Shown here: piece by piece, positions 19,253 through 22,823 of the stretch
Position numbering within the stretch: the stretch's first letter is position 1
Layout: each line of letters begins with the position of its first letter
NCBI GenBank assembly: GCA_022763165.1
Contig: JALEGO010000260.1
Coordinates: forward strand, 1 to 32,568
Length of the DNA: 32,568 nucleotides
Direction of reading: 5' to 3'
Source: Flavobacteriales bacterium
GTDB taxonomy: Bacteria; Bacteroidota; Bacteroidia; Flavobacteriales_G; JALEGO01
Program-made: the position numbers and the translations under genes
The notes under the pieces: generated by a model
Told to the model about the DNA's origin: nothing
Databases searched by the model: none
What the model saw: only the letters and a program-made list of their open reading frames with translations

Positions 19253-19372
19253 GTATCAGTTAAGAGCTACGAAAGTAGGGGATTAAAGATGAATGAACAA
19301 GAAATTTTGACGCTTGTGAATACGGAAAATCAATTTAAAGAAGCCAGGATTTTTTTTATTCGAATTAAATAA

Positions 19373-19384
19373 CTACAATTGTAG
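19373..19384. promoter_or_regulatory. BlaI/MecI-type operator 1 (CTACAATTGTAG)
   Basis: Perfect 12-bp palindrome containing TACA-N2-TGTA, about 20 nt upstream of the BlaI-type ORF. Confidence 0.75.
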
Positions 19385-19392
19385 TAATAAAA

Positions 19393-19404
19393 CTACAGTT
19401 GTAA
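19393..19404. promoter_or_regulatory. BlaI/MecI-type operator 2 (CTACAGTTGTAA)
   Basis: Second TACA-N2-TGTA site, centre exactly 20 bp from operator 1; its last base is the A of the ATG of the BlaI-like CDS. Confidence 0.72.
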
Positions 19405-19781
19405 TGAAATCGCTTAACGACTCGGAACTCCAAATAATGGAATACTTGTGGAAGCTGAAAAAAGCATTTCTTAAAGAAATTGTTGATCAATTTCCTGACC
19501 CAAAACCTGCTTATACCACAATTTCCACTCTGGTAAAAAGGATGTGCGATAAAGAATATATTGGGTTCAAAAAGTACGGAAGAGACAAACATTATTTCCC
19601 TATTTTGGAGAAAAAGAACTACTTCTCTTCAAAATTGAAAACGATGGTTAACGACTTTTTCAATAACTCCAATACACAGTTTGCTTCATTTTTCACTAAA
19701 AACTCCAACATGAGTTTAAATGAACTTGAAGAATTGCAGAAATTGATAAACCAAGAGATTCTAAAAAAGAAAAATGATTAA
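19404..19781 (+). CDS. BlaI/MecI/CopY-family transcriptional repressor
   Basis: LNDSELQIMEYLWKLKKAFLKEIVDQFPDPKPAYTTISTLVKRMCDKEYIGFKKYGRDKHYFPIL is the typical BlaI winged-helix; overlaps the downstream M56 gene by 8 nt. Confidence 0.9.
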   Translation: MKSLNDSELQIMEYLWKLKKAFLKEIVDQFPDPKPAYTTISTLVKRMCDKEYIGFKKYGRDKHYFPILEKKNYFSSKLKTMVNDFFNNSNTQFASFFTKNSNMSLNELEELQKLINQEILKKKND

Positions 19782-21198
19782 AAATCTCATACTTGTAAAT
19801 GTTATTCTAGCCATTTCTTATTTAATGTACTGGTGTCTATTGCGTAGGTCAACAAGATATCAGTTCAAGAGGTTTTATATGCTCTCAGTAATGTTTTTGG
19901 CCTTAATAATACCATGGCTTCAATTTGAGGGACCAATCGAGGTACCTGTGCAAACAGCGAGTTTCGTTTCCAACAATATAGCGGAAAATCTAAACGTTTC
20001 GCAAGAGGTTTTTTATGATTCTATTTCGCAGGAATCTCGAGAAACACCCTTATTGTTACTGATCTATCTTTCAATTTCCATTCTTTTCTTAATCCGATTT
20101 ATGCTCAACCTCATAAAATTGGTTCGAAAGACTGTCAAGTTTATTCTGCCAATAAAGGTTAATGGTCTAAATGTGGTGATGTTACAAGGAAAAGGTCAAT
20201 TGTTCAGCTTTTTCAATTTTGTATTTTCTTCATCAGATCGGTTTTCCTCTTTATATAATAGTAATGCCATCTCTCTACATGAAAGAGCCCACAGCCGTCA
20301 ACTTCATTCATTAGATATTATATTCTCGGAATTGATAATCTGTATTATGTGGTTCAACCCTTTTGCTTGGTTGTTTAGAAAAGCCATTGCAGACAATCAC
20401 GAATATCTTGCTGATCAAGCAGTGTTGGATGAAGGAGTTTCCAAAGAAGAATATATGCAGGTAATGGTGGATCATCAGATTTCAACAAATTCACCTCTTG
20501 CCAGCGCTTTTAGTTATTTACAAACCAAAAAAAGAATTAAAATGTTAAACAGAAAATCAAAAAGAAGTTTAGAATACTTTAGGATAGGTGTTATTGTTTG
20601 TATGAGTGTTGCTGTTTTTTCATGCAGTACAGTAAAAATTGAACATAAACCAATTGTTGTGGTTATTGATGCTGGACATGGCGGAAAAGACCCTGGTTGC
20701 AATGTAGATGAAATCAATGAAAAGGACATTGTATTGAACATTAGCAATATGTTGGCCGCATATTCCCATAAAGATAACATTGAAATCCGAGTCACCAGAC
20801 ATGAAGATCAGTTTCAGGAGCTTCATTCCCGCCTAGATTACATAAAGAAGATTGAACCAGACATGTTTATCTCCTTACATGTTAACCATGCTTCTAACCC
20901 GGAAGTTTCAGGTGCGGAAGCTTATTATTATAGTGGTCCAAGTGAAGAGCGTTCGATGCGACTGGCGGAATCTTTGCTTTCAGAGTTATCGGATCATACG
21001 CAAGATTCAAAATTGGCCCCGGCTCGATTTTATTTGCTCAAAAACACAAATTGTCCTGGAACAATCTTAGAGCTAGGTTTTTTATCAAACTCTGGAGACA
21101 GGGAGTTCTTGAACCAATCAGAAAATCAGGCTTTGGTGGCACAATCAATTTTCGAGGGAATTCGTAAATTTCGAGATCAAAGCTTATACGGTTATTAA
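19774..21198 (+). CDS. BlaR1-like M56 membrane metalloprotease fused to C-terminal N-acetylmuramoyl-L-alanine amidase (Amidase_3)
   Basis: M56 part: N-terminal TMs, HExxH motif (LHERAHSRQLHSLDII), NPFAWLFRKAIADNHEYLADQAVL. Amidase_3 part from ~20656: VVVIDAGHGGKDPG, E in NEKDIVLNIS, ISLHVNHAS, ILELGFLSN. One uninterrupted 474-aa ORF. Confidence 0.87.
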   Translation: MIKNLILVNVILAISYLMYWCLLRRSTRYQFKRFYMLSVMFLALIIPWLQFEGPIEVPVQTASFVSNNIAENLNVSQEVFYDSISQESRETPLLLLIYLSISILFLIRFMLNLIKLVRKTVKFILPIKVNGLNVVMLQGKGQLFSFFNFVFSSSDRFSSLYNSNAISLHERAHSRQLHSLDIIFSELIICIMWFNPFAWLFRKAIADNHEYLADQAVLDEGVSKEEYMQVMVDHQISTNSPLASAFSYLQTKKRIKMLNRKSKRSLEYFRIGVIVCMSVAVFSCSTVKIEHKPIVVVIDAGHGGKDPGCNVDEINEKDIVLNISNMLAAYSHKDNIEIRVTRHEDQFQELHSRLDYIKKIEPDMFISLHVNHASNPEVSGAEAYYYSGPSEERSMRLAESLLSELSDHTQDSKLAPARFYLLKNTNCPGTILELGFLSNSGDREFLNQSENQALVAQSIFEGIRKFRDQSLYGY

Positions 21199-21289: not shown

Positions 21290-21922
21290 TTGCATCAAAA
21301 TTTACTCCTTCAAAAGATTAAGTTTCCACTATTGGAATATGCGGGTAAAAATTTATTCGAAAAAATTTCAGAGAAAGATCGTTTTTCGTTTTGTGATGAA
21401 GTAGAACGCCTCAAAACAATGGGAGGCAACGTTCTATTAGGAATCATGCTCCAGTTGCACATAGAGCAATCGTTTAAGGAATCGTTTTCAAAGGCTGCAG
21501 AGTATATATCAATGGCTGATATTTGGTATGTATGCGACATCATTGGGGAAAGGGTTTTTGGGTATGGATTGGTTTCAAGACCAAAGGATACATTCCCGGA
21601 AATTGTCAAATTGTTTGGCCATGAAAGTGACTGGGTCGTTCGAGCCTTAGGCGCTGGAGTGCATTATGCGACAAAAAAGGGTCTTTCAAAACAGTATGTT
21701 GAACAGATCTTTCCGTTTCTACTGCAAAAAGGGAAGTCACGAAATAAAGAAATAAAACAAGGTATTGGTTGGGCTGCCAAGACAATTGCCAAGTTTCACC
21801 CAGCCGTCATAAAGTCATTTAATTCTGAAATACAGGACAAAGAAAAAGTAGGCCAGTGGTTTCGGACAAAGGTTAGAATTGGATTGAATCGAAATGCTTA
21901 TGCCCAAGGAAATCGAAGTTAA
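21290..21922 (+). CDS. AlkD-like / HEAT-repeat DNA alkylation repair-type protein (tentative)
   Basis: Helical repeat protein with ADIWYVCDIIGERVFG and SDWVVRALGAGVHYATKKG resembling AlkD-family motifs. Start uncertain: the same frame is open upstream (INSITRKHEIKRRTDLVIDAYTANGIVSSIEV...) back into the previous CDS, without an ATG. Confidence 0.55.
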   Translation: MHQNLLLQKIKFPLLEYAGKNLFEKISEKDRFSFCDEVERLKTMGGNVLLGIMLQLHIEQSFKESFSKAAEYISMADIWYVCDIIGERVFGYGLVSRPKDTFPEIVKLFGHESDWVVRALGAGVHYATKKGLSKQYVEQIFPFLLQKGKSRNKEIKQGIGWAAKTIAKFHPAVIKSFNSEIQDKEKVGQWFRTKVRIGLNRNAYAQGNRS

Positions 21923-22823
21923 ATCTGTGCTTAATAAAACCAAGAGAAGAGATCCTTGGTTTTTAGATGACTATACCTTCAATCCCTACAGCAGTTGTTC
22001 GTTTAATTGTCTTTACTGCTACATTAGAGGTAGCAAATACGGAGAAAACTTGGCAGAGAGTTTATCAGTAAAAACAAATGCTATTGAAATTTTGGAAAAA
22101 CAATTATCCTCAAGAGCTAAGAAAGAGCAATATGGATACATTGTTATTTCAAGTGCAACGGATCCCTATTTGAAAATAGAGAAGGAGTACCAATTGACTA
22201 GAGCCGCTCTTGAGATCATAGAAAAATACAGGTTTCCTGTACATGTAATCACGAAATCCGATTTAGTTGAACGCGATTTTGATTTACTGAAGAAAATTGA
22301 CTCAAATGCCATTATTCCCAAGAGCTTGAATTTGAAACGAGGAGTAATCATGAGTTTTTCTTTTTCTACTATTGAGGATCAAATAGGGGCGCTATTTGAG
22401 TCAGGAGCCACCAAACCGTCTTTGAGAATCAACACCGTGCGAAGAGCGCTTTCTGAAGATTTTCTCACAGGAATAAGTTTTATGCCACTTATCCCTTACA
22501 TATCAGACACCACTTCTCATTTGACAAGTGCATTTGCAATCTTTCAGAACCTTGGCGTAGATTACATTTTGCCAGCAACAATTACTCTTTTTGGAAATGG
22601 TAAGTCAGATAGTAAAACCTTGATCATGAAAATGGTTCAAAAACACTTCCCTGAATTGATTGATAAATACAATAAATTTTTTGAAAACAGTAATCAAATG
22701 CCTGAATATTATAGGAAGGCTTTTAAGGCTAAAATGCAAGAATTATGTGCCCAATATGATATTCCACAAGGGATTCTCTTAGCCGAGAAAGGTCAAGCTA
22801 TTCGCGAATACCTTCCCGAATAG
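21894..22823 (+). CDS. Spore-photoproduct-lyase-like (SPL/Rv2578c-type) radical SAM protein
   Basis: YTFNPYSSCSFNCLYCYIRGSKYGENLAE contains Cx3Cx2C in the SPL-type context; ISSATDPYLKIEKEYQLTRAALEII; overlaps the upstream ORF (alternative ATG at 21900). Confidence 0.8.
   Translation: MLMPKEIEVKSVLNKTKRRDPWFLDDYTFNPYSSCSFNCLYCYIRGSKYGENLAESLSVKTNAIEILEKQLSSRAKKEQYGYIVISSATDPYLKIEKEYQLTRAALEIIEKYRFPVHVITKSDLVERDFDLLKKIDSNAIIPKSLNLKRGVIMSFSFSTIEDQIGALFESGATKPSLRINTVRRALSEDFLTGISFMPLIPYISDTTSHLTSAFAIFQNLGVDYILPATITLFGNGKSDSKTLIMKMVQKHFPELIDKYNKFFENSNQMPEYYRKAFKAKMQELCAQYDIPQGILLAEKGQAIREYLPE

Follow-up and report, generated by a model that had tools for sequence, protein, structure and literature searches.

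How bacteria match the hydrolysis of their wall to its state is an open question, and it is raised by a locus in the 32,568-nucleotide stretch of a Flavobacteriales genome analyzed here (the window), where a peptidoglycan hydrolase sits at the end of a BlaR1-like receptor. In classical BlaR1 and MecR1, the extracytoplasmic C-terminal part is a penicillin-binding sensor, and activation of the M56 protease leads to loss of BlaI repression. What, then, might a hydrolase in this position sense, and what would the receptor control? A first-pass annotation of the window had described one 474-residue open reading frame at 19774-21198 (+) as an M56 membrane protease joined to a complete Amidase_3 domain. 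The reading frame is intact, its coordinates match exactly, and Pfam profiles detect both domains: aa 165-258 match Peptidase_M56 with an E-value of 3e-11, which passes the gathering cut-off, and aa 296-464 match Amidase_3 (E 7e-45) over profile positions 1-173 of 174. The motifs on which that description relied were likewise located, i.e., HERAH (aa 169-173), NHEYLAD of the NHEYLADQAV element (aa 208-214), DAGHGG (from aa 299), NEKDIV (315), SLHVNH (367) and ELGFLS (433), with the amidase tetrad H302/E316/H369/E433 intact.

Each half also resembles a known structure. A profile of 80 M56 proteins matched S. aureus BlaR1 (8exp) along the membrane and protease half (E 8e-16), and a PDB sequence search returned, for the amidase part, Nostoc AmiC2 (5emi, E 4e-24) and CwlV. 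An AlphaFold model of the whole protein, built from 42 sequences (mean pLDDT 87.9), matched the CwlV/AmiC2 amidases with a TMt of 0.88-0.90 and the BlaR1 structures more weakly (E 4e-5); the structure of LytH was also among the fold matches. A penicillin-binding sensor of the SxxK transpeptidase or class D-like type was not found in the fusion protein, whose C-terminus matched Amidase_3 only in the Pfam and PDB searches. A frameshift or assembly artefact is ruled out, because full-length orthologues occur in independent genomes, one of them closed as a single 4.5 Mb contig, with blaI just upstream in each.

Hydropathy and the positive-inside rule predict an N-out protein with four transmembrane (TM) helices, which are also present in the AlphaFold model, and a periplasmic C-terminus. 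TM1 (aa 5-23; 19786-19842 (+); helix 2-23 in the model) and TM2 (aa 34-52; 19873-19929 (+)) are separated by a positively charged loop, and TM2 is followed by an acidic loop (aa 53-92) that is predicted to be periplasmic and disordered. TM3 (aa 93-111; 20050-20106 (+)) precedes the M56 domain, and six Lys/Arg residues lie within the 15 positions before TM4 (aa 271-289; 20584-20640 (+)). The M56 domain is therefore predicted to be cytoplasmic and the amidase periplasmic, and a cytoplasmic amidase was rejected on this predicted topology. The end of TM4 carries a lipobox-like FSCS in the window protein (20617-20628, aa 282-285) and LSCT in the G620 orthologue (L233), and such a sequence is absent from the G022 and G034 orthologues; signal peptidase II may act at this site, in which case the amidase would be set free as a lipoprotein.

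The protease half retains the residues expected of an M56 gluzincin. The cryo-EM study of BlaR1 identified H201EXXH, E242XXXD, Tyr261, Arg293/294 and the autocleavage bond Ser283-Phe284 (PMC9834060), for which alignment gives the counterparts HERAH (20278-20292 (+)), E210-xxx-D214 (20401-20415 (+); third ligand and Asp motif), Y227, R254 and F246 (20509-20511 (+)), the last aligned to the P1′ Phe284 of the autocleavage loop. Among 80 M56 homologues, R254, H178 and D181 are invariant, Y227 is nearly so, and Phe occupies the position of F246 in 65. These homologues were chosen by their HExxH/HExxAD motif, so that independent evidence of conservation is limited to Y227, R254, F246, H178 and D181.

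The amidase domain (20659-21165 (+)) is of a short form, with H302, E316 and H369 as zinc ligands and E433 as the catalytic residue. It lacks the insert, between the equivalents of H369 and E433, that bears the autoinhibitory helix of AmiA/B/C; this insert is present in housekeeping amidases of G022 and G034 and absent from all fused amidases aligned. A division amidase of the AmiC type was ruled out by this missing insert. The H/E/H/E tetrad is kept in 13 of the 14 fused amidases and, judged from these residues, the fused domain is apparently active as an N-acetylmuramoyl-L-alanine amidase. The exception is the G034 orthologue (L035:1486-2922 (-)), in which Thr replaces the catalytic Glu (LLTLGN) and the three zinc ligands, the operon and the operator are kept. 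It resembles a natural pseudoenzyme version; catalysis would thus be dispensable in the G034 lineage, and the pattern fits a binding role. Besides the fusion, the genome of the window has a short stand-alone amidase that is probably secreted (G000:C583, L203:1505-2197 (-)), also helix-free and 33% identical over the domain.

Directly upstream lies blaI (19404-19781 (+)), which encodes a 125-residue repressor of the Penicillinase_R/BlaI/MecI type (PF03965, E 4e-28, with matches to MecI and BlaI structures) and whose last 8 bp lie within the fusion gene. At the position of the BlaI cleavage site N101|F102, the window BlaI has an FF pair, i.e., the P1′ Phe is conserved and P1 is Phe rather than Asn. 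Two putative operators precede the gene: a perfect dyad, ACTACAATTGTAGT (19372-19385 (+)), with no mismatches to ACTACANNTGTAGT, and a second copy, ACTACAGTTGTAAT (19392-19405 (+)), with one mismatch and overlapping the blaI start codon. We take this ACTACA/TGTAGT dyad to be akin in form to BlaI/MecI-type operators. The same tandem arrangement stands before blaI in G022, G034, G177 and G620.

How many other genes might such a repressor reach? The tandem pattern occurs exactly once per genome, ahead of the fusion operon, in the window's genome (G000), G022, G034 and G177; in G369 its lone match precedes an M56-M23 operon, and the M56-amidase operon of that genome has a looser variant. The exact 16-mer TACTACANNTGTAGTA occurs once each in G022, G034, G177 and G620, always before the fusion operon, and a second exact copy was not found in these four near-complete genomes, of which G620 is closed. 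Two sites with one mismatch to the 16-mer, one in G022 and one in G034, both lie within open reading frames. In the window's genome, a draft of 86% completeness and 5.7% contamination, the operator itself differs from the 16-mer at one position, and the remaining one-mismatch sites fall within open reading frames. The uniqueness of the operator rests on the zero-mismatch class, because a backward-read control pattern finds 1-3 matches in each genome when up to one mismatch is allowed.

The neighborhood offers no obvious resistance target: a beta-lactamase or penicillin-binding protein (PBP) gene was found neither next to the operon in the window nor in those flanks of relatives that were inspected. 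By Pfam, the neighbors encode CysS, an M28 peptidase, an AlkD-like (DNA_alkylation) protein and a radical SAM protein. The last two genes (21290-22823) lie downstream of the operon in the same orientation, and since the interval that separates the AlkD-like gene (21290-21922) from the fusion gene showed no terminator-like site, co-transcription is possible. The window also encodes a type IX secretion CHU_C protein, in line with Bacteroidota. A CysS tree, together with the named members, places the window in class Bacteroidia, where its lineage has no close neighbor among the named genomes sampled. A tandem duplication of two large pairs of open reading frames in the window was considered and rejected.

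The first-pass annotation had left open how frequent the fusion is. It is real and not isolated, since M23 and M23 plus Amidase_3 C-termini recur in the class. Within the Bacteroidia, the C-terminal slot of BlaR1-like receptors holds Amidase_3 in at least nine genomes, M23 in at least eight (G369, G261, G357, G124, G337, G286, G304 and G249) and M23 followed by Amidase_3 in at least five, these counts being minima because scoring was limited to the few best candidates of each genome. In the same order (42 genomes), at least three carry M56-Amidase_3 (G000, G022 and G034) and at least five the triple fusion (G011, G014, G018, G026 and G031), with a frame change interrupting the M56 part in G014. 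Further M56-Amidase_3 proteins were found in the class sample (G177, G369, G263, G310 and G373) and the phylum sample (G620). Wherever the flanks of double and triple fusions were read, blaI lies directly upstream. No M56-Amidase_3 fusion was found at E ≤ 1e-50 in 199 genomes of the phylum of L002 (labelled Acidobacteria), the only phylum sampled outside the Bacteroidota, and no plasmid record covered 80% of the query. A first scan of viral contigs returned no amidase, and a later profile scan of viral contigs gave sequences for the structure model.

In a tree of the M56 domain, the window protein groups with the Amidase_3 fusions of G022, G034 and G177, two fusions to M23 and a single receptor of a different type (support 99/86). 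Because this supported group mixes amidase, M23 and other receptors, its related members appear to have swapped C-terminal domains. The fusions of G263/G310 and G373 are placed outside this group, and that of G373 probably represents a separate fusion event, although long branches limit what can be drawn from its position. The triple fusions fall together in one clade. Resolution is poor in the amidase tree, where a single clade of fused amidases is neither supported nor firmly rejected (p-AU 0.06).

In the operons of the triple fusions (L098, L099, L100, L101 and L095), blaI is preceded by AACTG-N6-CAGTT dyads, for the most part tandem, rather than by ACTACA-NN-TGTAGT, implying a different BlaI specificity. 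Three of these operons (L095, L098 and L099, from three genomes of one genus) adjoin a divergent gene that, judged by eye, resembles a cbb3-type oxidase subunit. A second kind of regulator-amidase fusion is encoded in G304 (L234:2950-4182 (-)), where HTH_3 and a hydrophobic segment precede a complete Amidase_3 domain with the H/E/H/E tetrad; this protein could be a membrane-bound transcription factor sensing peptidoglycan.

What could such a receptor do? The locus had been read as a BlaR1-type receptor whose sensor is replaced by an amidase that may bind or process peptidoglycan directly. The latter suggestion gains support from the absence of a penicillin-binding domain, the predicted periplasmic location and the kept zinc and catalytic residues, which make direct binding or processing the natural reading. 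Wall damage or turnover, the signal that the annotation proposed, is a candidate trigger. The replacement itself stands insofar as the M56 half and the BlaI partner are intact. However, it is half the picture, since the amidase is also the only evident output. In the genomes tested, the operator appears to mark only its own operon, and therefore the likeliest output is the amidase itself.

We thus propose a two-gene closed circuit in which the tethered amidase senses a wall substrate and induces its own operon, a reading to which we give about an even chance. BlaI would repress only its own operon through the tandem operators, and the receptor would be anchored by four helices with the M56 zinc protease in the cytoplasm and the short amidase in the periplasm just above the membrane. 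The amidase would engage its substrate, which is probably peptidoglycan close to the inner membrane that is damaged or not crosslinked, and the resulting change, relayed through the membrane helices, would lead M56 to cleave BlaI and derepress the operon. As the only evident product is more receptor-amidase, the substrate would be trimmed until the signal falls, so that one protein probably serves as both sensor and effector. Interchangeable hydrolases (Amidase_3, M23 or both) in the C-terminal slot are expected on this proposal, because wall cutting or binding would be the point. A more tentative extension, which we rate somewhat below an even chance, is that the Bacteroidia contain a family of one-operon peptidoglycan homeostats, each consisting of BlaI and an M56 receptor whose interchangeable periplasmic hydrolase would be both the substrate sensor and the only output.

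Several observations do not fit the closed circuit easily, i.e., the missing catalytic Glu of G034 and the FF, rather than NF, at the BlaI cleavage position. The operator pattern may also have missed weaker or single sites at which BlaI acts. In addition, TonB_C tails occur on 37 of the 80 collected M56 receptors of the same class, a sample biased by the queries, and M56 fusions to CarboxypepD_reg/Plug domains are also common in this query-biased set; with TonB_C-tailed receptors this common, a C-terminal domain may have a role other than that of a peptidoglycan effector. In one alternative, the amidase fold is only a peptidoglycan-binding sensor, just as the BlaR1 sensor uses a penicillin-recognizing fold, with other genes under weaker BlaI operators as the real outputs and catalysis incidental. 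The G034 orthologue agrees with it, as does the HTH_3-Amidase_3 protein of G304, a distinct fusion by which amidase domains have been joined to transcription regulators more than once. However, the zero-mismatch operator has no second copy in any of the four near-complete genomes, and full catalytic residues in nearly all fused amidases go beyond what binding alone needs. A dedicated sensor controlling other genes is thus less likely than the closed self-inducing circuit and, taken by itself, we consider it unlikely.

In another alternative, the amidase would generate a messenger: stem peptides freed by it would be recycled to the cytoplasm and converted there into a small coactivator, e.g., gamma-D-Glu-mDAP, which would release BlaI from DNA, with M56 cleavage adding to the effect in a feed-forward loop. 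A dipeptide from peptidoglycan turnover binds BlaI/MecI and dissociates BlaI from DNA in vitro (B. licheniformis/B. subtilis; PMC3305447), and amidases release stem peptides upstream of such fragments. However, the reported affinity is in the millimolar range (PMC3305447), peptide binding would have to be assumed for the window BlaI, amidases cell-wide, including the stand-alone paralogue in the same genome, would feed the same pool, and the G034 orthologue lacks the catalytic Glu, so that we regard this route as improbable. We give least credence to a constitutive tethered autolysin for which M56 is mainly an anchor or stabilizer and BlaI only sets the expression level, with no sensing by the fused domain, since the M56 gluzincin and accessory residues (E210, D214, Y227 and R254) and the co-occurrence with BlaI are maintained as expected of a working protease-repressor relay. 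In its favor, the LytH structure is among the fold matches, and S. aureus LytH, which needs ActH as a partner in the membrane and may cleave uncrosslinked peptidoglycan alone (cited in PMC8496864), offers a precedent for the control of an amidase by such a partner.

If the closed circuit is correct, the architecture would link a peptidoglycan hydrolase to the proteolysis of a repressor on the opposite side of the membrane, directly and without a kinase, and the BlaR1 mechanism would reach beyond drugs to the sensing of the wall. The otherwise unexplained M56-M23 fusions gain a testable explanation as well. The G034 orthologue and the HTH-amidase fusion of G304 are natural tests of sensing versus catalysis.

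Among known systems, M56-M23 fusions likewise join M56 and a peptidoglycan hydrolase in a single chain, and were already noted in a 2022 review of M23, in which M56 is among the catalytic domains found with M23 (<1% of matches), M23-amidase combinations are also listed, and a role of M56 in peptidoglycan cleavage is stated not to have been shown (PMC9662197). In those fusions, the hydrolase is an M23 endopeptidase, and this survey gives no mechanism, nor does its passage on M56 mention an M56-Amidase_3 or triple fusion (PMC9662197). A search of the openly accessible literature returned no description of the M56-Amidase_3 fusion. CwlV, AmiC2 and CwlD (1jwq, 5emi and 7rag) share the fold, the zinc ligands, the catalytic Glu and the lack of an autoinhibitory helix; they are separate cell-wall enzymes, whereas here the amidase forms the C-terminal part of a polytopic protease-receptor. 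In LytH-ActH of S. aureus, too, a polytopic membrane protein keeps an Amidase_3 domain at the membrane, although ActH is a different kind of membrane protein, on a separate chain, and repressor cleavage is not known to be involved.

The BlaR1/MecR1-BlaI/MecI systems of S. aureus and B. licheniformis share the M56 gluzincin HEXXH and EXXXD motifs, the predicted N-out topology with four TM helices, the Phe of the autocleavage loop, an adjoining BlaI-family repressor and one or more dyad operators before the operon. While similar in these respects, we note differences between the two. First, the C-terminus of BlaR1/MecR1 is an SxxK penicillin-binding sensor, whereas that of the fusion protein is an Amidase_3 peptidoglycan hydrolase. 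Second, BlaR1 systems switch on a separate resistance gene, whereas the fusion operon, which has no linked beta-lactamase or PBP gene, is preceded by an operator that, in the genomes tested, is unique to that operon itself.
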